From assembly GCA_947258705.1 (NCBI GenBank), contig CAMYJA010000007.1, forward strand, positions 208,424 to 272,423: DNA of 64,000 nt, written 5' to 3'. Below are positions 3 to 63,909 of the stretch, in pieces; position 1 is the stretch's first letter, and each line of letters opens with the position of its first letter. This DNA is from an uncultured Hyphomicrobiaceae bacterium (GTDB lineage: Bacteria > Pseudomonadota > Alphaproteobacteria > Rhizobiales > CAMYJA01). The notes under the pieces are model-generated. The model did not search any database. It had not been told where the DNA came from and saw only the letters and a program-made list of their open reading frames with translations. The translations under genes and the position numbers were made by a program.

Positions 3-659
3 AATGGTGGCGACAAGAATTGGGGAGAGGCGCCGCCCTATGAAACGCTGGCACGGCGCGCCTGCGCGGCTGCATCGCCGGATTTTTCGCTCGGCTCTTC
101 AGGCGCCGGGTTTGGCGCGACCACGGCCGATTGCAAGGGCGGGATCGGCAGTGCCTCGCTGGCTCTTGAGAACGGGCTTATGGTTGGCGTTTTGGCGGCC
201 GTCAATGCGGCCGGATCGGCGACAGTCGGGAGCAGCCGGCATTTCTGGGCGGCACCGTTCGAGCTCGATGAAGAATATGGCGGTTACGGCCTGCCCGATC
301 CGCTCCCCGGTGATGCGCACGAGGTCCGGCTCAAGGGCGGCAGCCGGCAGAACACCACGCTCGGAATTGTCGCCACCAATGCGCGGCTTGGCAGGGCGGA
401 GCTGCACCGGCTGGCCGTCATGGCGCAAACCGGTCTCGCCAAGGCCTTGTGGCCGGTTCATACGCCGCTCGACGGCGATGTGGTGTTTGCGATTTCCTGC
501 GGCGCGTTGGATCTGGAAAATCCGTTTGCCGATCTGGCCGAACTCGGCGGGCATGCGGCAAACGCCATGGCGCGCGCGATCGCCCGCGGCGTCTATGAAG
601 CGCAATCGTTCGGAGATGCGTGGCGCGATCCTCCTTCACATCGTGAAATGCATGGCTGA
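3..659 (+). CDS. P1-family (S58) aminopeptidase, C-terminal part, cut by window edge
   Basis: The frame is open from the first bases and ends in TGA, giving 218 residues of a protein that starts outside the window. The sequence looks like the DmpA/NylC (peptidase S58) family, Ntn-type hydrolases that cleave themselves into two chains and act as aminopeptidases or amide hydrolases. The telling part is the Asn-Thr-Thr-Leu-Gly stretch near 351-365, followed by ATNARL: in this family the Thr (or Ser) after the cleavage site becomes the N-terminal nucleophile. The upstream SLALENGLMVGVLAAVNAAG segment is also typical. The gene precedes purB by about 165 bases and has no visible functional link to it. 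The family is fairly certain; the substrate is unknown. Confidence 0.8.
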   Translation, partial: NGGDKNWGEAPPYETLARRACAAASPDFSLGSSGAGFGATTADCKGGIGSASLALENGLMVGVLAAVNAAGSATVGSSRHFWAAPFELDEEYGGYGLPDPLPGDAHEVRLKGGSRQNTTLGIVATNARLGRAELHRLAVMAQTGLAKALWPVHTPLDGDVVFAISCGALDLENPFADLAELGGHAANAMARAIARGVYEAQSFGDAWRDPPSHREMHG

Positions 660-825
660 TCCCGGGCGTGCCGCACAGGAATCCGGCGGCATGACAATAT
701 TGTGGAAATCCTGCATGCAAACATGCGTTTTCGGTGGTATTGCCTATGACTGATATGTTCTAGAACTTGAGCAATTTTTCAGCCTGACAATTCGGGCAAT
801 CCTCCATCATTTGAGCGGAGTACAC

Positions 826-2127
826 ATGATACCGCGTTATTCAAGGGCCGAGATGGCCGATATCTGGACGCCCGAGAGCAAGTTCCGCATCTGGTTCGAG
901 ATCGAAGCCCATGCGGCGACGAAACTTGCCGATCTCGGCATTATTCCGGCAGAGGCCGCCGAGGTCATCTGGAAAAAGGGCGGGGACGCGGTTTTCGACG
1001 TTGCGCGCATCGATGAAATCGAAGCCGAGGTCAAGCATGACGTCATCGCCTTCCTCACTCATCTGGCGGAGATCATCGGCCCTGAAGCCCGCTTCGTGCA
1101 TCAGGGCATGACGTCGTCGGATGTTCTCGACACCTGTTTCAATGTGCAGCTTATGCGGGCGTCCGATCTTCTGATTGCCGATATAGACGGGCTTCTGGCG
1201 GCCCTTAAAAACCGCGCCCTTGAGCACAAGGACACGATTTGCATCGGCCGCAGCCATGCCATTCATGCCGAACCGGTGACGTTCGGGCTCAAACTGGCGC
1301 AGGCTTATGCCGAGTTTGACCGCTGCAAGTCCCGTCTTTTGTCCGCACGCGAGGAAATTTCAACCTGCGCCATATCCGGCGCTGTCGGCACATTTGCCAA
1401 TATCGATCCGTCGGTCGAGGAATTTGTCGCCGAGCAGATGGGGCTTACCGTGGAGCCCGTCTCCACCCAGGTCATCCCTCGCGACCGCCATGCCATGTTT
1501 TTTGCGACACTCGGCGTGATCGCCTCCTCGATCGAGCGTCTGGCGGTCGAGATACGGCATTTGCAGCGCACGGAGGTTCTCGAAGCTGAAGAATATTTTT
1601 CGCCGGGCCAGAAGGGCTCGTCCGCCATGCCGCATAAACGCAATCCCATCCTGACCGAAAACCTGACGGGGCTGGCGCGGATGGTTCGGGCCTATGCCAT
1701 GCCGGCCATGGAAAATGTGGCTCTCTGGCATGAGCGCGACATATCCCATTCGAGCGTCGAGCGGATGATCGGTCCAGATGCCACGGTGACGCTCGATTTT
1801 GCCTTGTCGCGGTTGAGGGGCGTGATCGAAAAGCTCGTCGTTTACCCCGAGCGCATGGAAGACAATCTCAACAAGCTCGGCGGGCTCGTTCATTCCCAGC
1901 GCGTTCTATTGGCACTGACGCAGGCCGGCGTGGCGCGCGAGGACGCCTACCGGCTGGTTCAGCGCAATGCCATGAAGGTCTGGGAGGAGGGACGCGACTT
2001 TCTGACCGAACTTCTCGGCGATGACGAAGTCCGGGCCGCCCTTACCGAAGACGACATCCGGGAAAAGTTCGACATGGGCTATCACACCAAACATGTCGAC
2101 ACGATTTTCGCGCGCGTGTTCGGATGA
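826..2127 (+). CDS. purB: adenylosuccinate lyase
   Basis: PurB catalyses two steps of purine synthesis: release of fumarate from SAICAR and from adenylosuccinate. The 433-residue length fits the short bacterial form. The fumarase/aspartase-superfamily signature GSSAMPHKRNP lies near residues 263-273, and HQGMTSSDVLDT near residues 94-105 is the usual substrate-binding segment. I chose the ATG at 826, preceded by GAGCGGAG; a TTG at 811 would add five residues. It leads the purine cluster here but is separated from purC by about 0.9 kb and an opposing gene, so it is probably transcribed separately. Confidence 0.96.
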   Translation: MIPRYSRAEMADIWTPESKFRIWFEIEAHAATKLADLGIIPAEAAEVIWKKGGDAVFDVARIDEIEAEVKHDVIAFLTHLAEIIGPEARFVHQGMTSSDVLDTCFNVQLMRASDLLIADIDGLLAALKNRALEHKDTICIGRSHAIHAEPVTFGLKLAQAYAEFDRCKSRLLSAREEISTCAISGAVGTFANIDPSVEEFVAEQMGLTVEPVSTQVIPRDRHAMFFATLGVIASSIERLAVEIRHLQRTEVLEAEEYFSPGQKGSSAMPHKRNPILTENLTGLARMVRAYAMPAMENVALWHERDISHSSVERMIGPDATVTLDFALSRLRGVIEKLVVYPERMEDNLNKLGGLVHSQRVLLALTQAGVAREDAYRLVQRNAMKVWEEGRDFLTELLGDDEVRAALTEDDIREKFDMGYHTKHVDTIFARVFG

Positions 2128-2141
2128 AGGCTTTACCTTTG

Positions 2142-2269
2142 CATCCTTCGAGACGGTGCCTTTGGCACCTCCTCAGGATGAGGATGGCGGGTGCGGGACG
2201 GGAAACCAAATAAAAGCCTCATGGTGAGGAGAGCTCGTGGCACAGCCACAGCTCGTCTCGAACCATGGG
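2142..2269. repeat. REP-like paired palindromic element
   Basis: Just after purB there are two imperfect palindromic halves. The first begins ATCCTTCGAGACGG and turns back as CCTCCTCAGGATGAGG (2143-2183). The second begins CCTCATGGTGAGGAG and ends CGTCTCGAACCATGG (2217-2268). A related half recurs at 49694-49734 in this window. I recall the same paired motif as a dispersed intergenic repeat in Hyphomicrobiales-type genomes. It may act as a transcript 3' structure for purB. No coding capacity is seen. Confidence 0.65.
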
Positions 2270-2282
2270 CATAACGTCGCAC

Positions 2283-2606
2283 TCAGGCGTCGTTCTCGAT
2301 CTGATTGATGGCTTCGTGCATCAATTCGTCCATGGTGCGGCGGATCTGGTGATCCGACTGGTCGATGTTTTTGGCATCGAAGTCGCCGCGGATTTTTCGG
2401 AAAACGTCTTCATCGCCCGGTTCGGCGAAATCCGCCTTGATGACGGATTTGGCATATTCGTCCGCCGCATCGCCATCGAGCCCCATAAGGCCGGCCGCCC
2501 ACAGGCCCAGGAGCTTGTTTCTGCGCGCTTCGGCCTTGAATCTAAGCTCCTGATCATGGGCAAATTTCTTCTCAAATCCCTTCTCGCGATCGTCAAATGA
2601 TGACAT
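2283..2606 (-). CDS. DUF1476 protein, ATP synthase zeta-type inhibitor
   Basis: A 107-residue protein beginning MSSFDDREKGFEKKFAHDQE and continuing KAEARRNKLLGLWAA. It belongs to DUF1476, the family of the zeta subunit that inhibits F1Fo-ATPase hydrolysis in Paracoccus and other alphaproteobacteria. The charged N-terminal segment corresponds to the inhibitory region in the characterised protein; the rest is a helical bundle. It lies opposite the purine genes between purB and purC, a placement I recall from many alphaproteobacteria. Its role as an ATPase inhibitor in this organism is inferred from the family. It is cytoplasmic with no signal peptide. Confidence 0.88.
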   Translation of the reverse strand: MSSFDDREKGFEKKFAHDQELRFKAEARRNKLLGLWAAGLMGLDGDAADEYAKSVIKADFAEPGDEDVFRKIRGDFDAKNIDQSDHQIRRTMDELMHEAINQIENDA

Positions 2607-3019
2607 GATCAGAACTCCCTGGTATCGCTCTTGTTATTGATGTCTCGTGTTGCGCCGTGCAATTTTACGGAACTGGCGTTCCAGCACGTCTCCTGCAGTG
2701 AAATACTCTCTCATGTCTTTGAAATCAATGCTAGAAATTCAGAGTTTCCCACAGCAACATTTCAACTGGTCAGATTGATTGTTTCGCACACGCGCATCCG
2801 CTAATGTGCCGCCCGATAGCCAAAGTGATTCCATAATGGATATGAAATTTGGTCTTAATCGCGAGATAGCATGAAAAATCCGATATCTCGAAACGGTTCT
2901 GTTGTTTCGAAGCCAGGTTGCAAACGGATTGCAACGGGATTGTTCATGGATTTCGTCGCGTTTCTGCCTAAACTCTCATTTCCCAAGCGCATGAGCAGCA
3001 TGACTGAAAGGTTTGAGTT
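2607..3019. other. Intergenic region between zeta-inhibitor gene and purC
   Basis: This stretch separates the divergently oriented DUF1476 gene and purC, so it should hold both promoters. I see no convincing ORF, RNA gene or riboswitch, and no clear -35/-10 pair that I would commit to. The purC ATG is preceded by GAAAGGTTTGAGTT, a modest ribosome site. Confidence 0.4.
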
Positions 3020-3796
3020 ATGAACCGCCGACGACGCATTTACGAAGGCAAGGCCAAGATCCTCTATGAGGGACCGGAACCGGGCACGCTCATTCAGCAT
3101 TTCAAGGACGATGCCACCGCCTTCAACAATAAAAAGCACGAGGTGATCGAGGGCAAGGGCGTGCTCAACAACCGGATTTCCGAGCATATATTCCTTATGC
3201 TCGCGGAAATCGGCGTGCCGACCCATTTTCTCAAGCGCCTGAATATGCGCGAGCAGCTCATTCAGGAAGTCGAGATCATTCCTGTCGAGGTTGTGGTCCG
3301 CAATATCGCCGCGGGATCCATCGCCAAACGGCTCGGCATTGACGAGGGCACGCGGCTGCCGCGATCCATCGTGGAGTTTTATTACAAATCGGACGATCTC
3401 GACGATCCGATGGTCACGGATGAGCATATCACAGCGTTTGGCTGGGCCAATCCGCAGGAACTCGACGACATGATGGCTCTGGCTCTCAGGATCAACGATT
3501 TTCTGACGGGGCTTTTTCTGGGCATCGGCATTCGGCTTGTCGACTTCAAAATCGAGTTCGGACGCCTTGAGGAAAACGACACCCTGCGGATCGTGCTGGC
3601 CGATGAAATCAGTCCCGATTGCTGCCGTCTGTGGGATATCGAAACGGATGAAAAGCTCGACAAGGATCTGTTCCGCCGCGATATGGGCGGTCTTGTGGAC
3701 GCTTATCAGGAAGTGGCGCAACGTCTCGGCATTCTGGCCGAAAGCCGTCCTGCCGCGGGTTCGGGGCCGGTTCTCGTGACCGACAACTCAAACTGA
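3020..3796 (+). CDS. purC: phosphoribosylaminoimidazole-succinocarboxamide (SAICAR) synthase
   Basis: PurC joins aspartate to CAIR using ATP, the seventh step toward IMP. The 258-residue product begins [19 protein letters not shown], with the ATP-binding YEGKAK motif at the N-terminus. [11 protein letters not shown] near residue 94 and [14 protein letters not shown] near residue 195 are the family's substrate-binding signatures. It starts the purC-purS-purQ-purL run; purS follows after 57 bases. The C-terminal tail after residue 245 is not conserved. The identification is secure. Confidence 0.96.
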
Positions 3797-4102: not shown

Positions 4103-4792
<690 letters not shown>

Positions 4793-4804
4793 GGGCATTG
4801 ATCG

Positions 4805-7042
4805 ATGACAGAGGCCGCAATAGACATTGAAAAAGAAACAGGTTCCGCGATTACGCCGGAACTCGTGGCCGAGCACGGTCTGACGACGGACGAATATGAC
4901 CGCCTGCTCGAAATTATCGGACGCGAACCGAGTGTCACGGAGCTCGGCATTTTCTCGGTTATGTGGTCCGAACACTGCTCCTATAAATCATCGCGTTTCT
5001 GGCTGAAAAAGCTTCCCACGACCGGTCCGCAGGTCATTTGCGGCCCCGGCGAGAACGCAGGCGTCGTCGATCTCGGCGATGGCGATGCGGCGATTTTCAA
5101 AATGGAAAGCCATAATCATCCCTCCTATATCGAACCCTATCAGGGGGCGGCCACGGGTGTCGGCGGCATCATGCGCGATGTCTTCACAATGGGTGCGCGC
5201 CCCATAGCCAATATGAACGCGCTCAGATTCGGTTCGCCGGATCATCCGAAAACCAGGCATCTTGTCTCGGGAGTGGTCGCGGGTATCGGCGGATACGGCA
5301 ATTGCATCGGCGTTCCCACTGTTGGCGGAGAGACCAATTTCGATGCGCGTTACAACGGTAATATTCTCGTCAACGCCATGTGCGTGGGGCTCGCGAAGAC
5401 AGACAATATTTTCTATTCGGCCGCCAAGGGCGTCGGGTTGCCGGTGGTCTATGTCGGATCAAAAACCGGCCGCGACGGCATTCACGGCGCAACCATGGCA
5501 TCGGCCGAGTTTGACGACGATACGGACGAGAAACGCCCGACGGTTCAGGTCGGCGACCCCTTCACCGAGAAACTTCTAGTCGAGGCCTGTCTCGAGCTGA
5601 TGGCAACGGACATGATCATTGCCATTCAGGACATGGGAGCCGCGGGGCTGACTTCCTCATCTGTCGAGATGGCGGACAAGGGCGGGGTCGGCTTCAACCT
5701 CGATCTCGACAAGGTTCCACAGCGCGAAGCCAATATGACGGCTTATGAAATGATGCTGTCCGAAAGCCAGGAACGCATGCTGATGGTTCTGCGCCCCGGC
5801 ACCGAGCAGGCGGCAGAGGAGATCTTCAGGAAATGGGATCTCGATTTCGCAATTGTCGGCGAAACCACGGATTCGGGCCGGCTCATCGTTTCGCATTCCT
5901 CTGAAGGCGGCGTCGTGGCCGACCTTCCCGTGGCGAAACTCGCCGATTCCGCGCCCGTCTATGAGCGCCCCTGGGTGAAGACGACTCCCCCCGAGACGCT
6001 CGATCCGAAAGATGTGAAAACCCCCGACAGCCTCCTTGGCGCACTCGCGCAGATGATGGGCTCGCCCCATCTCTGCTCAAGGCGCTGGATTTGGGAGCAA
6101 TATGATCACATGGTGATGGCCGACACGGTGGCGCGGCCGGGCGGCGATGCCGCCATGGTCCGCGTGCACGGCACGAATAAGGGCCTTGCCATATCCTGCG
6201 ATGTGACGCCGCGCTATACCCAGGCCGATCCTTATGAGGGCGGCAAGCAGGCAGTGACGGAATGTTGGCGCAACCTGACAGCTACAGGCGCCAAACCGCT
6301 CGCCATTACCGACTGTCTGAACTTCGGCAATCCGGAGCGGCCCGAGATCATGGGGCAGTTCGTCGGCGCCATCGAGGGTATGGCTGAAGCCATTTCGGCA
6401 CTCGACTTCCCGGTCGTCTCGGGCAATGTGTCGCTTTACAACGAAACCCAGGGCGAGGCCATTCCGCCCACACCCGCCATTGGCGGCATCGGCCTTATCG
6501 ACGATGTAGCGAAACGGGCGAATATAGCTCTCACGGGTTCGGGCGACCGGCTGATCGTGATCGGTGCAAACAAGGGACATCTCGGCCAGTCGATTTATCT
6601 CGATGTGATTGCGGAAGATGCAAAGGGCGCGCCGCCGCGCGTCAATCTGGCGGATGAAATCAAGGCCGGGAACATGGTGCGCAGCCTTATTCATGCGGGC
6701 AAGGTCCGGGCCGTGCACGATGTCAGCGACGGCGGTCTTCTCGTCGCCATAGCGGAAATGGCCCTTGCCGGTGGCACCGGCGCCCATTTGAACGTTTATG
6801 AGGGCGATCTCCCGGCCCATGCCTTCTGGTTCGGGGAAGATCAGGGACGTTATGTTCTGGCCGTTCCAATGCAGAATGTGGACAGCATTCTCGATCAAGC
6901 CCGCGCGCTCGCCCTACCCGCCCTGAAAGTGGGACGGACCGGGGGCGACAAGCTCAGCATCGAGGAATCGGGCGGCATCGCCCTGTCTGAGCTTCGCGAA
7001 GCCCATGAAGGCTGGTTGCCAAACTACATGGAGATAAGCTAA
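4805..7042 (+). CDS. purL: FGAM synthase large subunit PurL (short type)
   Basis: A 745-residue protein of the small PurL type that needs PurS and PurQ, in contrast to the ~1300-residue fused enzyme of enterobacteria. It converts FGAR, ATP and ammonia to FGAM. Recognisable parts are [12 protein letters not shown] near residue 53, [23 protein letters not shown] near residue 99 and the later GNVSLYNE near residue 540, typical of the repeated ATP-binding AIR-synthase folds. It is the last gene of the purine run; the next gene, bolA, is 175 bases away. Confidence 0.96.
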
Positions 7043-56596: not shown

Positions 56597-57445
56597 CTGA
56601 AAATTCGGGCGACATATCCGGCATTATTTGCGCTAGTGACCGCTGCGTGCCAGCAGACGGGCGTCACTCCGGCGGCTTTCGACGGCACCGCGTCATCCGG
56701 CGGCCTGGCTTCCGTGAGCCCGCAATATGGCAAGGGCGGCAACATTGCCTCGCTCAGCTCCGTCATCAAGAACAATCCCAATGACGCCGGCGCGCTGAAT
56801 TTGCGCGGCACCGCCTATGGCCGCACCAGATCCTATAAAAAGGCGCTCAAGGATTTCGACCGGGCCATCGAGATCAATCCGGACTATTACCAGGCGATCG
56901 CCAACCGCGCCCTCATCCATGTGAAAATGAAGCGTTTCGACAGGGCCCTGGCCGATTACAACCGGACCCTGACCCTCAGAAAAAATTACAATATCGCCTA
57001 TATCGGCCGGGGCAATCTTCACGCCATTCAGAAAAACTACCACCTCGCCATTGCCGATTTCTCCCGCGCCATCGAGCTTAAGAACGAAGATCCGATCGCA
57101 TGGTTCAGCCGCGGCAAGGCCTACCAGACGCTCGGACAGCATGCGCGGGCCGTGCAGGATTTCGACCTGGCGATCAGCCTGAAACCGATTTCGTCGGAGC
57201 CTTATTTCCGCCGCGGCATCAGCCGGATGAAACTCGGAAAACTTGTCGAGGCTTATGATGATTTCTTCGTCGCCGGCAAGCGCAACGAAAAACATTACGC
57301 CGCCTGGACCTATCGCGGGCTCGCCGCGGAGCGCATGGGCGACAAGAAGAAAGCCGCCCGGGCTTTCAGGCGCGCCCTTTCCATCAATTCCTCATACAAG
57401 CCGGCGGTCGATGGGCTGCGCCGCGTCGGATCGGATTCGGTCTGA
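56597..57445 (+). CDS. TPR-repeat lipoprotein-like protein
   Basis: A 282-residue protein with tandem tetratricopeptide repeats (NPNDAGALNLRGTAYGRTRSYKKALKDFDRAIEINPDYYQAIANRALIHVKMKRFDRALADYNR and four more) spanning residues ~50-260. TPRs bind partner proteins. The frame has no ATG near its start. A CTG at 56597, eight bases after AAGGGG, gives LKIRATYPALFALVTAACQQ, a short signal peptide ending near an Ala-Ala-Cys lipobox-like site. The first standard start is GTG at 56636, after most of the signal. I favour the CTG; the mature part is probably periplasmic. Confidence 0.72.
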   Translation: MKIRATYPALFALVTAACQQTGVTPAAFDGTASSGGLASVSPQYGKGGNIASLSSVIKNNPNDAGALNLRGTAYGRTRSYKKALKDFDRAIEINPDYYQAIANRALIHVKMKRFDRALADYNRTLTLRKNYNIAYIGRGNLHAIQKNYHLAIADFSRAIELKNEDPIAWFSRGKAYQTLGQHARAVQDFDLAISLKPISSEPYFRRGISRMKLGKLVEAYDDFFVAGKRNEKHYAAWTYRGLAAERMGDKKKAARAFRRALSINSSYKPAVDGLRRVGSDSV

Positions 57446-57679
57446 GACGAAATTCCCCTAATTCTCGAATTATATGAGCCCTCATATGAGGCCTCATATG
57501 AGGCCTCGGTTTGGCCGTCATTTCTGCCAGAACAGCTGCATTGCAGAGATAGCCGCCGTCGTCTTTAAGGTAGTATTGCTCGAACAAAGCCTGCGAGCTT
57601 TTGTCCGCAGGGCAGGTAAACGCAGACAAATGCAATTGGTCCAGTGGCCGAGCGGGGAATCGACAGGACACAGCCGATT

Positions 57680-57761
57680 GGAACAACGCGCGTGGCCAGA
57701 TGCACCTCGACTTCACGTAAACCCGCAGAATATCTTCGTCAGAATAACGCTTGCGAGCCAT
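57680..57761 (-). pseudogene. Decayed IS3-family orfA (transposase) 5' fragment
   Basis: Minus-strand translation begins MARKRYSDEDILR, the typical start of IS3-family OrfA. After a frameshift it continues in another frame as LREVEVHLATR, which matches the expected LLREIEVHLA segment. The homology then stops. It is therefore a broken transposase remnant of about 25 codons. The plus-strand sequence just left (57475-57510) carries a doubled palindrome CCTCATATGAGG. Confidence 0.65.
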
Positions 57762-57840
57762 GAGACTTCTCCCTCAATATTGCAGAGTTAAGCAAATTTA
57801 CCGGTTCATTTAGGGGGGGTGGGGGAAGGACAAAGGCGTA

Positions 57841-57890
57841 CTGTACAATTACGGCGTGCACTGTACAATTGCGACGTGTGCTGTACAATT
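57841..57890 (+). promoter_or_regulatory. Three CTGTACAATT iterons at 20-bp spacing
   Basis: The decamer CTGTACAATT occurs identically at 57841, 57861 and 57881, exactly two helical turns apart. The 10-base spacers differ. Each contains the palindrome TGTACA. The cluster lies 120-170 bases upstream of the hybrid kinase gene and 80 bases from the IS3 remnant. A cooperatively bound regulator is likely; alternatively it is an end structure of the lost IS. Confidence 0.75.
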
Positions 57891-58008
57891 ATCATGTATG
57901 GCGTTGGAACTCATATAATAATTCACAGTAGAAAGTAATACACAGCTTAATGTCACGCAATTGACGTTCGCTAGTGACTTTTGGCCATTCTGCTTATTAC
58001 AATATGGA

Positions 58009-60678
58009 ATGTTTCTAGAACTCGCAGATGTTGCCACACACCTTATAGCGCTCAGTCTGATTCAGGGACTCATCGCCTGGCGATGGTCTGGTACGCTCAT
58101 TGGTCAGGTTCTGTCGGGACTTCTGTTTGGCATTATTTGCGTGTCGGGCATGTCGAATCCGATCGAAATTGCGGCCGGCACGCTTTTCGTCAGCTGCACA
58201 ATTATCTTGAGTATGGCCGGTTTGTTTGGCGGCCCCCTGGTCGCAGGTATCGCTATAACCACGGCGATTGGATACAGCACATGGCTTGGTGGCAGCAGTA
58301 TGCCATTGGGCATTGCTTCTATGATCACATCGACGCTTCTTGGTCTTGCTTTTCATTATTCCGACCTGGCGATGGCGGCCATGAAAGATATCGCCATTCC
58401 CATGGTCATCATATTCACGCCGGCCACCGTCCTGTTGGGCATCTTGTTGAAGTCGTTTGAGGAGCAGGTCCGAACGAAAAATGCGCTCATAGCCAGCGAT
58501 CAACGCCTCCGAATGTTCGCGAAAACCTTCCAGGCCAGTCCGACGCCATCCTCTATCTGCCGGCTTAACGAAGGCAGCTTCTACGACGTCAATGAAGCGT
58601 GGATGTCGGCCACGGGATATACGCGAGAGGAGGCCCTGGGACATAGCGCGCTCGAGCTCGGAATATGGGGCGATCCGGACAGGCAGGAGCAATTCGTCGA
58701 ATTGCTCAAGAATGACGGAACCGTCAGTAATTTCGAAACCAAATTCAGGAACAAGAAGGGAGAGGAACGCGACTTCCTCGTCTCCGTGGAACGCGTGGAT
58801 TTTGGCCACGAGCCGATGTTGTTTTCTGTCTCTCATGACATCACAGCGCTCAAAAACTCAGAAATTATGAATCTCAGGCTCGCACGCATCGTCGAGGATT
58901 CGATAAACGAAGTGTATGTGTTCGATGCCGAGACACTGGAGTTCATGCAGGTGAATGCGAGCGCCTGCGAAAATCTTGGCTACACTCAAGAGGAATTGCT
59001 CGGTCTGACGCCCCTCGACCTGAAACCAGAATATTCACATGACAAATTTTTTGAACTGATCGCGCCCCTCAGGAGTGGAGAGAAAGACCGAATACAGTTT
59101 AAGACCGTTCACATCGAAGACATCACCTTGCGCAAGATGGCTGAGGAAGCCCTCAGAGAGAGCGAAAATCAACTCCGTGAAATTCTCGAGAACAGTCCGG
59201 TCGGCGTTGCAGTCGTCACTCATTCTAATGATGATGGCCGCCCGACCGGCAACCGGTTGTTCGTCAATAGCAGCCTCATGCGGATGTTCGGCGCTTCATC
59301 CCGAGGACAATTGTTGAAAGCGGATATTTCGGAAAGTTGGGTTGATCGCGATCAACTCAATACAGTCGAAAAAATTATGAGCCGCCGCGGGGAACTGGTT
59401 GATTTTGAGGTATTGAGACGCCGTATGGACGGGACCGAATTTTGGGTTTCGATGAATTCGCGCCCAATCCTTTTCAATGGCACGGACTGTAGTATGGTCT
59501 GGCATTTCGACATGACCAAACGCAAAAAGGCCGAGGAGCAGCTGCGCCAGGCCCAGAAGATGGAAGCTATTGGTCAACTTACAGGCGGAATTGCCCACGA
59601 TTTTAACAACCTGCTTGCGGTAATTCTCGGTAATATTCAGCTTCTGGAAAAATCGATCGGAGGGGATGAACGGGGCCGGCAGCAGCTGCGTTTTGCCGCG
59701 GATGCCGCCAGGCGCGGTTCTCAACTGGTTGAGCGGATGCTTGCCTTTTCCCGTAAGCAGAAGCTGGATTTGAAAATCATCGATGCCGACGATCTCCTCA
59801 TCAACATCCGGGGTATGCTGTCACGCACGCTGGGGGAAAGGATCAAATTCAGGATAACAGGCAACAAAAATCTCTGGTTGACCAAGGTGGATCCCAGTCA
59901 GCTCGAACTTGCGGTCCTGAATCTGACCATCAACGCTCGAGATGCCATGCCCGAGGGAGGGATGCTGACAATTGATACGGAGAACGTCCATCTGGACGAA
60001 GACAGTCACTCCGTTGATTCCGAACTGTCGGCCGGAGATTACGTATCGATCACGGTCACCGACACAGGCAAGGGAATTCCCGCAGATATACTTGGCCAGG
60101 TTATCGAGCCTTTTTTCACCACTAAAGGCATCGGCCAGGGCAGCGGGCTTGGACTGAGCATGGTCTATGGTTTTGCCAGGCAATCCGGTGGCGGAGTCGA
60201 AGTCGTTAGTGAGATCGGCCAGGGAACGATGGTCAAGCTTTATCTTCCTCGTAACGCCGCGAAGAAAGCAGATGCCCTGACAGTTGTTGCCAATGCCGGA
60301 AATCTCGTTGGCGGCAGCGAAAAAATCCTCGTTGTCGAGGATGACCCTGCGGTTTGCAGGGTCGCGGTGTCCTTGCTCGAAGAGCTTGGATATCGGGTTT
60401 TGAAGGCAAACGACGGCCCCTCTGCGATACAGGTGCTCAAGGACGAGCAGGTGGACCTACTTTTTAGCGACATCATTATGCCGGGCGGCCTGAGAGGCGA
60501 TGAACTCGCCACGCTTGCCGTCAAGAGCTACCCCGAGCTCAAGGTGCTGCACTGCAGCGGTTATGGTCTGCCCAGGAATTTGCATGACGGCATCGCAATA
60601 CCGGAACATGCCATGCTTAAAAAACCTTACCAAATCGAGGATCTGGCCACTTCTGTACGACAGGCATTGGACGCTTGA
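58009..60678 (+). CDS. hybrid sensor histidine kinase with LytS-type 5TM sensor, PAS domains and receiver
   Basis: An 889-residue membrane kinase. Residues ~1-150 form a five-helix 5TMR-LYT sensor (SGLLFGIICVSGMSNPIEIA, AGLFGGPLVAGIAI). Three PAS segments follow (from about residues 165, 290 and 400). The second is cut short: GEKDRIQFKTVH runs directly into IEDITLRK, lacking about 25 core residues. The H box GGIAHDFNNLL puts the phospho-acceptor His at 530, with the ATPase boxes after it. A C-terminal receiver has Asp821 in LFSDIIMPGG. There is no output domain, so it probably phosphorylates a separate regulator. The start is uncertain: ATG 58009 or TTG 57961. Confidence 0.88.
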   Translation: MFLELADVATHLIALSLIQGLIAWRWSGTLIGQVLSGLLFGIICVSGMSNPIEIAAGTLFVSCTIILSMAGLFGGPLVAGIAITTAIGYSTWLGGSSMPLGIASMITSTLLGLAFHYSDLAMAAMKDIAIPMVIIFTPATVLLGILLKSFEEQVRTKNALIASDQRLRMFAKTFQASPTPSSICRLNEGSFYDVNEAWMSATGYTREEALGHSALELGIWGDPDRQEQFVELLKNDGTVSNFETKFRNKKGEERDFLVSVERVDFGHEPMLFSVSHDITALKNSEIMNLRLARIVEDSINEVYVFDAETLEFMQVNASACENLGYTQEELLGLTPLDLKPEYSHDKFFELIAPLRSGEKDRIQFKTVHIEDITLRKMAEEALRESENQLREILENSPVGVAVVTHSNDDGRPTGNRLFVNSSLMRMFGASSRGQLLKADISESWVDRDQLNTVEKIMSRRGELVDFEVLRRRMDGTEFWVSMNSRPILFNGTDCSMVWHFDMTKRKKAEEQLRQAQKMEAIGQLTGGIAHDFNNLLAVILGNIQLLEKSIGGDERGRQQLRFAADAARRGSQLVERMLAFSRKQKLDLKIIDADDLLINIRGMLSRTLGERIKFRITGNKNLWLTKVDPSQLELAVLNLTINARDAMPEGGMLTIDTENVHLDEDSHSVDSELSAGDYVSITVTDTGKGIPADILGQVIEPFFTTKGIGQGSGLGLSMVYGFARQSGGGVEVVSEIGQGTMVKLYLPRNAAKKADALTVVANAGNLVGGSEKILVVEDDPAVCRVAVSLLEELGYRVLKANDGPSAIQVLKDEQVDLLFSDIIMPGGLRGDELATLAVKSYPELKVLHCSGYGLPRNLHDGIAIPEHAMLKKPYQIEDLATSVRQALDA

Positions 60679-60931
60679 TTTGGCGCTGACGGATCTGAAA
60701 TCGATCTTTCGCGCCCCCCTCCGAATGACCGGTCTGATCTGAGCAATCCATTTTTAAAAAAAATCCGCCGGATCCCGATATTGTCGCTTCAGCCGATGCG
60801 GATGGTTGACCGGAACACAATATCTATGGCGTCCTCTGGGCACGCACCTGTGGACCATCTCCATAACCAGTGCGGGCGCCTCTCCGAAACACTCACAGAA
60901 CCTCACGGTCTTTGGTGAACGTGCGTCGCGA

Positions 60932-62311
60932 TCAATCTCGGCGATCCACTGGTAGAAGGATTGAGACTGTCGTGCCGCCGTCAGCTGAAGTCGTCACATC
61001 GACATACCCGTTGGCGTTTTCAGCGAAGTCCTTGACCATGCTGAGACCGGAGCCGGTATCGGAACTTCTGTTTTTGGCGGTGACAGGTGTATCGAGGGCG
61101 GAATCCTCTTGGTTCGGGAGCACGTCGCCGCCGGAAACCGTAACCTGTATCATCACGTGTTCATCGAAATTTGTAGATTCCATGGAGCGATTGCTTACTG
61201 TCGAGTCGGGCGGCCTGACCGACACCTTGATCTCGCCGCCCCCCGGCATCGCATCGCGAGTGTTCAGCACCAGATTCAAGAGAGCGTTTTCGAACTCTCC
61301 AACGTCGATATGGACGAAAGCCTCAGGTGATTGCAGATCAAGATTGATGCGATACGCCCTGCCCAGGAGCCGCGTTAAAAATTTACCCATCCGTGAGACC
61401 ACTTCCACACATGGTTCCGTCGTCACAGAGGCAATTCGAGGCCGGGAAAACGTCAGCAGACAGTCGGTCAACTCTTTGCCCACCTGAACCGCTTCCATTG
61501 CATCATTAAGTGCATTGCCCGCCTTGTCGTCCAATTTATCAACCGAAGCGAGCCTTAAGACCTCAAGGTTGGAGTTAACTGCTGTCAGCGTGTTGTTGAA
61601 GTCGTGAGCCATGCTTCCGGCGAGCTCACGCAAGAGCTCCAATTTCTGTTGCTGCTTTGAGTTCCCTTCTGCCGCCAACAGTTCGGTAACACGCAGGCCA
61701 AGTGTCAAGATCTGGCCATCATCCAAAATAAAGTCTGTTATACCCGTCCTTTGATTGTCATTGTGTCGGAAGATCAGGCTATTTGCCGGATTGTTGCGGC
61801 GATCGAGTCGTTGCGCAATCCAGTCTTCTGTGTCCTGGGCGGAGCTACCGATCCCATTCGCTTTGGCAAAAGCACGCACGATGTCCTCGTACCGGATACC
61901 CGGTTTCACGGAAACACCTGCCGATTCATAGATACGGCCGCATTCCCGATTGCAAAAGACGAGATGATCCTCAGAATCGAAAAGTGCAATTTCGACCGGT
62001 GTGGAATTCAGTGCGGTTGCCAGCCGGGTCTCGACTTTACTCCGTGTACTGATCACATAGGTAAGAATACAAACGCCGATGACAAAGCCCAGACCGACCA
62101 CACCATAAAGTATTTCATCAGCGCTTAATGACAATTGCGGTGGCCAGATAACTTTGGATGAAAATCGATTATAAAACTCATGGAATATAAACAATCCAAT
62201 TATAGCAACAAGTGTTAGCACCGCCCATTGCCTTATTCTTAACAATATCAATAGACAGATAAAGAATCCAGTTACAATAAGGATTGATATTATGTATAAT
62301 GCTAAGTTCAT
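60932..62311 (-). CDS. membrane histidine kinase with degenerate ATP-binding region
   Basis: A 459-residue kinase with two N-terminal helices (residues ~5-28 and 35-50), another near residues 75-90, and a PAS-like domain (LNSTPVEIALFDSEDHLVFCN, residues ~105-215). The H box GSMAHDFNNTL puts the His at 236; N box NLVLNTRDAMPGGGE is good. The G1 region, where DxGxG is expected, reads VTVSGGDVLPNQ, and the F box (PFFTTK) is lost; G2 DTGSGLSMV is kept. ATP binding may be impaired. The frame starts earlier at 62338; the ATG at 62311 is favoured. Divergent from the FixJ-type gene. Confidence 0.83.
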   Translation of the reverse strand: MNLALYIISILIVTGFFICLLILLRIRQWAVLTLVAIIGLFIFHEFYNRFSSKVIWPPQLSLSADEILYGVVGLGFVIGVCILTYVISTRSKVETRLATALNSTPVEIALFDSEDHLVFCNRECGRIYESAGVSVKPGIRYEDIVRAFAKANGIGSSAQDTEDWIAQRLDRRNNPANSLIFRHNDNQRTGITDFILDDGQILTLGLRVTELLAAEGNSKQQQKLELLRELAGSMAHDFNNTLTAVNSNLEVLRLASVDKLDDKAGNALNDAMEAVQVGKELTDCLLTFSRPRIASVTTEPCVEVVSRMGKFLTRLLGRAYRINLDLQSPEAFVHIDVGEFENALLNLVLNTRDAMPGGGEIKVSVRPPDSTVSNRSMESTNFDEHVMIQVTVSGGDVLPNQEDSALDTPVTAKNRSSDTGSGLSMVKDFAENANGYVDVTTSADGGTTVSILLPVDRRD

Positions 62312-62538
62312 CCAGTATTTTACTAATTGAGTATACAAACTAAGTGGCTTTAAATCTCTATGAAAACGGCAAGTTTCGAAAATTCCATTTTGATGCGACT
62401 AAGAATTATTCTAGACTAATTGTCGACGTTTTTGAAATACACACAGGTTGTAGGAGGTCGCATAGGACAGTCAGAAGTTGAATCGTTCCAATCATGAAGC
62501 GAATAATAAAAATGTGAAACTTTTTTGGGCGAGCAGAA

Positions 62539-63171
62539 ATGATGACGGCGGAAAATCAAAATTACGAGGTCTGTGTTGTTGAAGACGATCCCCTTGTCAG
62601 CAAGGGGCTAACCTCGTTGCTCGAACAAAAGGGATTTTCGGTTCAGTCATTCGCGACAGGTCATCAGATTCAAAACGAAACTTCGAGTTTGACCTGTTGC
62701 TGCGTCCTTCTCGACATCAACCTCCCGGATATCCATGGGCTCGATGTCCTGCGCAAGCTCAGATCCTGCCGCCCGGACATAAATGTCATAATGATCACCG
62801 GTCAGGCAGACATTCCGACTGCCGTCAAAGCCATGCAGCATGGCGCCCTGGATTTTATCGAAAAGCCGCCAACAGCCGATAGGCTGATAGAAGCGATTGA
62901 CCGCTCGCTGCAATTAAGTAAACAGGAAATCCAAAATCAACCTGGAGACAATGGCGAACTTCGCCCGCCACTCGACAAGCTCACAACAAGAGAGCTTGAG
63001 GTGCTCGTGCAGCTCGTAAAAGGCCATCAACATAAAATGATCGCCCACGAGCTTGGTATTAGCCACAGAACCGTCGAGGTCCATCGAGCACGAATCATGA
63101 AGCGTTGCGGCGCAAATTCTTTCGCTGAACTCATAAGAATAGCCGTCCTCTCCGGTCTCCAAATCGAATAG
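62539..63171 (+). CDS. FixJ/NarL-type response regulator (LuxR family)
   Basis: A 210-residue regulator. Residues 1-120 are the receiver with Asp59 in LLDINLPD, the conserved Thr in MITGQAD and Lys in FIEKPPT. Residues ~145-205 are a LuxR-type helix-turn-helix (LTTRELEVLVQLVKGHQHKMIAHELGISHRTVEVHRARIMKR). The order and linker fit FixJ. The divergent kinase 230 bases away and the hybrid kinase 2 kb upstream are candidate partners. The start is MMTAENQ at 62539. Confidence 0.9.
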   Translation: MMTAENQNYEVCVVEDDPLVSKGLTSLLEQKGFSVQSFATGHQIQNETSSLTCCCVLLDINLPDIHGLDVLRKLRSCRPDINVIMITGQADIPTAVKAMQHGALDFIEKPPTADRLIEAIDRSLQLSKQEIQNQPGDNGELRPPLDKLTTRELEVLVQLVKGHQHKMIAHELGISHRTVEVHRARIMKRCGANSFAELIRIAVLSGLQIE

Positions 63172-63308
63172 CCAAATCGAAAAATACTGAGACCAGTTAT
63201 AGCGGCTACATGGATTCCCTTAAGTGCTATCCCCTAATGGTTTAATGACATAACTGCATCCCTTAAGGACTATCCCCAACTAGCGGCGCTTTAACCAAAT
63301 CGAATAGC
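63160..63308. repeat. Direct repeats between FixJ-type gene and small protein gene
   Basis: TCCCTTAAGTGCTATCCCC (from 63216) and TCCCTTAAGGACTATCCCC (from 63259) are direct repeats 43 bases apart, differing at two positions. A second pair, CAAATCGAATAGC, flanks them at 63160 and 63296. They lie downstream of the regulator gene and upstream of the 63394 gene, in a good position to be regulator-binding sites. Confidence 0.6.
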
Positions 63309-63393
63309 TTTGAATCATAGCTGGCGCACGCCGGTGCGTTAGTGGGACAGTTTGCCGGATATCCAAACGCCGACGGGCGGGTATAGAGGGGCT

Positions 63394-63648
63394 GTGAAAA
63401 AAATGATCGAAGCTAAAGACTATATTGATAGTTGCACCGACAAAGACAGCTTACGAAAAACGGACAAAGACATCGTACGGAAAGCAGATAAGGACATCGT
63501 GCGAAAAGCGCTCGAATTGGCTATTGATCTCCGCTATCTCGTGGCCGACGGTACACTTAACGATCCGAAATTTGCGATTAGCCTTGCATTCGTGCTCGAG
63601 CAATATGCTGAAGCGGAGCGCGGTAACACCGGTAACCAGCTCCCCTGA
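63394..63648 (+). CDS. hypothetical small protein with internal tandem repeat
   Basis: An 84-residue protein, MKKMIEAKDYIDSC (GTG start at 63394, after AGAGGGGCT, or ATG at 63403). The middle is a tandem repeat RKTDKDIVRKADKDIVRKAL, two copies of an 8-residue Lys/Asp unit encoded by two near-identical 24-base blocks. The C-terminal part is helical (LELAIDLRYLVADGTLND). No family recognised. The frame upstream to 63352 is open but has no good start. Confidence 0.5.
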   Translation: MKKMIEAKDYIDSCTDKDSLRKTDKDIVRKADKDIVRKALELAIDLRYLVADGTLNDPKFAISLAFVLEQYAEAERGNTGNQLP

Positions 63649-63798
63649 AGTGTCGACGTTTTCGTAAGGATCTATTGTGCTCTTGAAGGAGACGGTGTTC
63701 CTATTTAGCGATCAAGAGACAGATTAGGGTATTCTACGAAGTGTAACCTTGACTCATTCAATCCCTGAGGATCAAACGGCCATTGTAAAGCCCCTTTG

Positions 63799-63909
63799 TT
63801 ATGGGCCATTTCTTGAAAGAGTTTCAGGTGCCGGAGGACGCATGTTAAGCGCCTGATGCGGACGGATGTGATTGTACTGTCTGAGCGGAATGGCAGCCGA
63901 TCTCAAAAT
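63799..63909 (-). pseudogene. Transposase C-terminal fragment (IS3/IS481-type)
   Basis: Minus-strand translation gives ILRSAAIPLRQYNHIRPHQALNMRPPAPE, then TLSRNGP and a stop at 63799. YNHIRPHQAL..RPP is the C-terminal signature of the IS3/IS481 DDE transposase (rve_3). A stop codon lies immediately upstream in frame, so only about 36 codons remain. It is a relic. The rest of the window end (63910-64000) has nothing I recognise. Confidence 0.75.

Follow-up and report, generated by a model that had tools for sequence, protein, structure and literature searches.

A probable self-contained two-component phosphorelay cassette, present in two diverged versions, beside dead IS3 scraps

Gene content of the region

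The window (C7:208424-272423) is the whole 64,000-nucleotide stretch of DNA that was analysed. It comes from a genome of 2.77 Mb in 66 contigs, and C7 runs 6 kb beyond its right edge and then stops. Within the window, the conserved core cluster purEK-rpsU-TPR stops at 57445. Among 24 loci of relatives, 20 retain the rpsU-TPR pair, and the genes 3' of TPR are variable, suggesting that the region studied here begins at a natural breakpoint; an attempted empty-site comparison found no gene order 3' of the TPR gene common to the relatives. A head-to-tail repeat of TCATATGAGGCC lies directly 3' of the TPR gene (57475-57510) and is possibly part of its terminator. Beyond this point, the following features are found.

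~57698..57832, minus strand: 5'-end IS3-family scrap, with an inward inverted repeat (57832 leftwards), leader and OrfA codons 1 to ~21
57840..57899, plus strand: triplicate direct repeat of 20-bp period, CTGTACAATT opening each unit, located after the left IS scrap and upstream of the hybrid kinase gene
57961..60678, plus strand: hybrid histidine kinase, with 5TM-5TMR_LYT, three PAS, HisKA (H546), HATPase and REC (D837)
60932..62338, minus strand: second kinase, with TM, PAS_7, HisKA (H245) and HATPase
62539..63171, plus strand: FixJ-type response regulator, with REC (D59) and a GerE/LuxR DNA-binding domain
63217..63233, plus strand: distal copy of the operator-like motif CCCTTAAGNNCTANCCC, 3' of the regulator gene and 5' of the small gene
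63260..63276, plus strand: proximal copy of CCCTTAAGNNCTANCCC, 43 bp downstream of the distal copy
63403..63648, plus strand: orphan small protein of 81 aa, with a conserved ATG at 63403 and a Shine-Dalgarno sequence; the ORF opens at TTG 63352
~63784..63886, minus strand: 3'-end IS3-family scrap, with the last ~25 OrfB codons (stop 63799) and an inward inverted repeat

The sequence-only reading had placed two kinases, a FixJ-type regulator and a small repeat protein between two IS3-type fragments. Domain matches bear this out, with the genes in the order hybrid kinase (+), second kinase (-), regulator (+) and small gene (+), and the small gene does carry three in-frame 24-bp repeats (63440-63511) encoding 8-residue [KTA]DKD[SI][LV]RK-like units. 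The intergenic DNA, described in that reading as AT-rich, has a GC content of 0.376 at 62.0-62.5 kb, and the GC3 of the module (0.53-0.61) is somewhat low, compared to 0.67 +/- 0.07. No Rfam families were found in the region.

Translation of the hybrid kinase likely starts at ATG 58009. Its N-terminal half matches 5TM-5TMR_LYT (PF07694) with 43 bits, compared to a cut-off of 24.6, and the G1, F and G2 boxes of its HATPase domain are intact. LytS itself combines GAF and HK_LYT domains and works with a LytTR regulator. The sensor half resembles that of LytS-type 5TM receptors, but here it is fused to PAS/HisKA and accompanied by a FixJ-type regulator. The PAS-HisKA-HATPase-REC core is shared with PRK13557/CckA-like PAS hybrid kinases (NF010076), although the score of 444 bits does not reach the curated threshold of 631 bits, and the window protein differs from this group in its 5TM-LYT sensor half, its FixJ-type regulator partner and the presence of a second kinase. 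Upstream, the three repeats starting CTGTACAATT were equalled in 0 of 300 shuffles and have no further copies in the window and its flank; they look like a candidate operator of some regulator.

The regulator has FixJ (5xso, E 1.7e-33) as its best solved relative. REC is followed by a GerE domain with a FixJ-like recognition helix, the core of which, RT(V/I)EV(H/Y)RA, is common to both proteins. However, its 181 bits lie under the NCBIfam equivalog cut-off for FixJ (255 bits), and hence we regard the protein as FixJ-like rather than as FixJ itself. Nor is there a FixL partner or fixK/nifA control to be seen, as the cassette contains neither FixL nor FixK. The nearest relative among 347 genomes of the class is 44% identical, a FixJ in genome G489 that adjoins a FixL-like kinase and a CRP/FNR-type gene. 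This is a FixL-FixJ locus in which CCCTTAAGNNCTANCCC is absent, and it was ruled out as a related module.

A second copy and the spacer motif

A diverged copy of the cassette is present on C42 of the same genome, with the same four genes in the same order and orientation. Positions on C42 and amino acid identities to the window copy are as follows.

419-3163, plus strand: hybrid kinase, 49% identical overall
4275-5702, minus strand: second kinase, 54% identical
5930-6565, plus strand: regulator, 75% identical
6740-6982, plus strand: small gene, 54% identical with starts matched

In all four gene pairs, third-position changes outnumber second-position changes. A third copy of the cassette is absent from the source genome, in which the next regulator is only 32% identical. 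On C42, an IS5-type transposase (DUF4096/DDE; L053:3177-3973) separates the two kinase genes at their convergent ends.

Divergence between the copies is unevenly distributed. In the hybrid kinase, identity reaches 88% in PAS block 301-350, the N-terminal 200 residues bear no relation to each other (the membrane sensor of the C42 protein is a different one), and one PAS of the window protein has no counterpart on C42. This pattern indicates replacement of the sensor half, with the transmitter half retained.

In the second kinase, which likely starts at ATG 62311, the window copy retains the H box (H245) and N box (N355, N359) of an active HisKA kinase. Its G1 and F boxes are lost, the former (DxGxG in active kinases) reading VSGGDV, compared to DTGCGM on C42, and the latter ALDTPVTAK, compared to AFDPFFTTK; the G2 box has degenerated. 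On C42 all of these boxes are intact and canonical. HATPase scores differ accordingly (42 bits in the window, 69 bits on C42), and identity between the paralogues falls to 0.35 across the G1 and F boxes, versus 0.55-0.75 in neighbouring segments. As the frame is open, the window protein may still function as a pseudokinase, or it may be at an early stage of decay.

The small protein (80-81 aa across the two copies) probably starts at ATG 63403 and not at TTG 63352 in the window. Changes at the three codon positions (0.34, 0.15, 0.43) fit a protein under constraint, and the 8-residue repeats are missing from the C42 copy, which points to recent repeat growth in the window. A helical hairpin is predicted for residues 14-74 by a single-sequence model made without an alignment (mean pLDDT 76), in which residues 31-70 average above 90. 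A fold search with the model gave no significant match, and we attach no weight to a faint similarity to a DHp hairpin (E 9.2). The protein has no Pfam match, and no relatives were found outside the source genome in a search of 385 class genomes, nor in viral contigs.

The spacer that leads from the regulator gene to the small gene is conserved in both cassettes and contains CCCTTAAGNNCTANCCC twice in the window and once on C42. Between the end of the proximal window copy and ATG 63403 lie 126 bp, compared to 127 bp between the C42 copy and the ATG of the small gene there. Allowing up to one mismatch, we found three sites in the 2.77-Mb genome, all of them exact and all in the two cassette spacers, compared to three one-mismatch matches and no exact ones for a reversed control pattern. 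No exact site occurs in the 397 other genomes of the order, and the 58 single matches in a very large collection of viral contigs are taken as chance. None of 300 dinucleotide shuffles gave an equally good repeat, with the caveat that the motif was defined post hoc and that two of the three sites neighbour each other. A literature search on the motif returned nothing relevant. The S. meliloti FixJ site, given as TAAGTAATTTCCCTTA in PMC4999443, has CCCTTA in common with CCCTTAAGNNCTANCCC, and we infer that the regulator binds the CCCTTAAGNNCTANCCC spacer. The leader at 63.32-63.40 kb, near the motif, is conserved too, so selection may act on the mRNA or the promoter.

Outside the source genome, the cassette was not seen. 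Among 398 genomes of the order, the second kinase has no close relatives save its own two copies, and the best foreign match (35%) covers a generic kinase core; the best match among 347 class genomes is 32%. At 80 loci drawn from 84,980 species, only generic PAS histidine kinases were encountered, at most 37% identical over the kinase length and lacking both module and motif. A plasmid search likewise gave only generic kinases and regulators, at ~40% or less. These comparisons support a lineage-specific module. One caveat is that the source genome is the sole member of its family in the comparison set, and hence sparse sampling may account for the lack of matches elsewhere.

To judge from the two copies, what unites these genes is common ancestry as a unit, together with a common, putatively regulatory spacer. 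The region is probably one of two diverged, self-contained two-component phosphorelay cassettes, lying beside dead IS3 scraps. Compared to bracketing by IS fragments, the stronger result is a self-contained signalling cassette that is present in duplicate, has an operator-like motif private to it and ends in an orphan gene as its output.

A proposed circuit

In the circuit we propose, the hybrid kinase would sense a membrane signal and phosphorylate the regulator, either directly or via its own REC and a histidine partner; this REC could also signal to a different regulator. The regulator would bind CCCTTAAGNNCTANCCC and switch on the small gene, a step that we consider somewhat more likely than not. 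We lean towards a window second kinase that no longer autophosphorylates and would act as a phosphatase, phospho-acceptor or dimer partner, or be decaying. The small helical-hairpin protein might feed back to the kinases or have a different target. Its role as a feedback regulator is a guess, prompted by its place in the circuit and by the precedent of FixT, which inhibits FixL autophosphorylation (PMC7078487), and we hold feedback on the kinases only tentatively.

The closest known parallel is FixL-FixJ-FixT of Sinorhizobium and Caulobacter (PMC7078487). A FixJ-type regulator and CCCTTA in the operator (putative in the cassette) are common to both systems, and the product of the small gene may feed back on a kinase, as FixT does. 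In place of FixL and FixK, however, the cassette has a membrane LytS-type hybrid kinase and a second kinase, and CCCTTAAGNNCTANCCC is private to it. Its small protein also differs from FixT: FixT-like proteins have a single receiver domain and a 4-Cys motif, whereas here the model is all-helical, with no receiver fold, and the sequence has no 4-Cys motif or Fe-S cysteines.

A whole relay present twice, in diverged form, within one small genome amounts to an experiment set up by nature: regulator, putative operator and small gene, which form the output half, have stayed together, whereas the sensor half was exchanged and one kinase lost its nucleotide-binding site. If the operator were confirmed, the sole detected DNA target of the circuit would be its own orphan small gene, and insulation and feedback in paralogous two-component systems would become directly testable. 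The most novel form of the proposal is a private cassette in which sensor halves are exchanged and regulator, operator and orphan helical-hairpin effector are kept as a set. Under it, the second kinase of the window would be a pseudokinase modulating the relay, and the small protein would represent a new kind of feedback regulator of histidine kinases. Taken as a whole, that form is distinctly doubtful.

IS3 scraps and the origin of the cassette

Two broken IS3-type fragments in the same orientation had been described at the edges of the region, the left one with a frameshifted OrfA start. Both are on the minus strand, and OrfA in the left scrap has a 1-bp deletion relative to sibling scraps, in agreement with that description. 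They match opposite ends of one IS carried by Maritalea, Roseovarius and Roseibium plasmids, in which these ends lie ~1.1 kb apart, and hence belong to a single IS type. On Maritalea plasmid NZ_CP021331, where the IS3-family element lies at 57.3-58.4 kb, both of its ends are matched down to their inverted repeats, but the window scraps are non-functional, with just 60-85 bp of coding homology each. One terminal inverted repeat is found at each scrap, pointing inward, toward the cassette. This implies two insertions on a linear chromosome, as in the claim of two separate elements, or one IS on a former circle.

Elsewhere in the same genome, C18 carries related 5' sequence and C2 related 3' sequence, each of them unpaired. 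C21 has end scraps of both kinds; this pair (L054:2604-5432) faces outward and brackets polysaccharide genes, in the reverse of the window arrangement, among them a Wzy-like gene that is intact and fragments of galE/glycosyltransferase genes.

The layout brings to mind a compound element, in which the cassette moved between two directly oriented IS3 copies that later lost their outer parts. Two copies of one IS type do flank the genes in the same orientation, as end scraps with their ends toward the module, and both the moderately low GC3 and the restriction to the lineage would fit. However, each insertion retains only one end, and the outer parts of both IS copies, with any target duplication, are missing. 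No scrap matching those of the window is present on C42, so the same ends do not bound the other copy of the cargo, and homology between the copies stops at the small gene and within the hybrid kinase, not at IS junctions. Because the C42 copy lacks scraps, and the others in the genome are unpaired or face outward, we reject the scraps as compound-transposon boundaries as the main explanation. The compound element is very improbable, and movement of the cassette by an IS3 element improbable. The scraps are probably bystanders: tempting as the conclusion is, IS scraps around genes need not have mobilised them.

Might the cassette instead be cargo of an integrative element, with its integrase end 6 kb past the window by a tRNA-Lys att-like core and the IS scraps incidental? 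An arm-type integrase, an AlpA-like (excisionase-like) HTH gene and a short tyrosine recombinase lie at C7:272388-278256, placing two tyrosine recombinases within 6 kb after the module; C7 terminates in a 23-bp stretch identical to an intact tRNA-Lys gene on C37; and the conserved core cluster stops at 57445. Yet no second att core was found in the window or its flank, the genes to the left of the module are core, and the C42 copy sits in a different neighbourhood (HTH_3, MucR), which makes this origin doubtful. Ordinary tandem or dispersed paralogy would dispense with mobility altogether, and with any special output, positing an old duplication within the lineage, a decaying window copy and a small ORF of minor accessory function. 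The 54-75% amino acid identity between copies, the degenerate second kinase and the internal repeat growth in the small protein are in line with it, but reading frames are intact, the regulator is 75% conserved, and CCCTTAAGNNCTANCCC and its spacing to the ATG of the small gene are retained; we consider it unlikely. On the wider claim of a transferred signalling module, the lineage restriction, low GC3, core breakpoint and nearby recombinases speak for a lineage-specific module, and on balance we favour lateral acquisition of the cassette by the source lineage. The part of the claim that had the IS fragments as its makers or boundaries is not supported, given the C42 copy without such scraps and the scraps elsewhere that are unpaired or face outward.

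Several minor features were noted at the right end of C7. The short XerC-like tyrosine recombinase (249 aa; L005:8389-9138) adjoins the right end of the window and precedes the integrase block. At the very end of C7 (L005:13055-14437), the arm-type integrase is followed by a chimeric half tRNA, which over its final 23 bp is identical to the complete tRNA-Lys(TTT) gene of C37 (L146:8041-8116). The sequence ATAGCTACCATATAGCAACC occurs both beside the C7 integrase and ~60 bp after the C37 tRNA-Lys gene, a placement that would suit the two termini of an integrative element.
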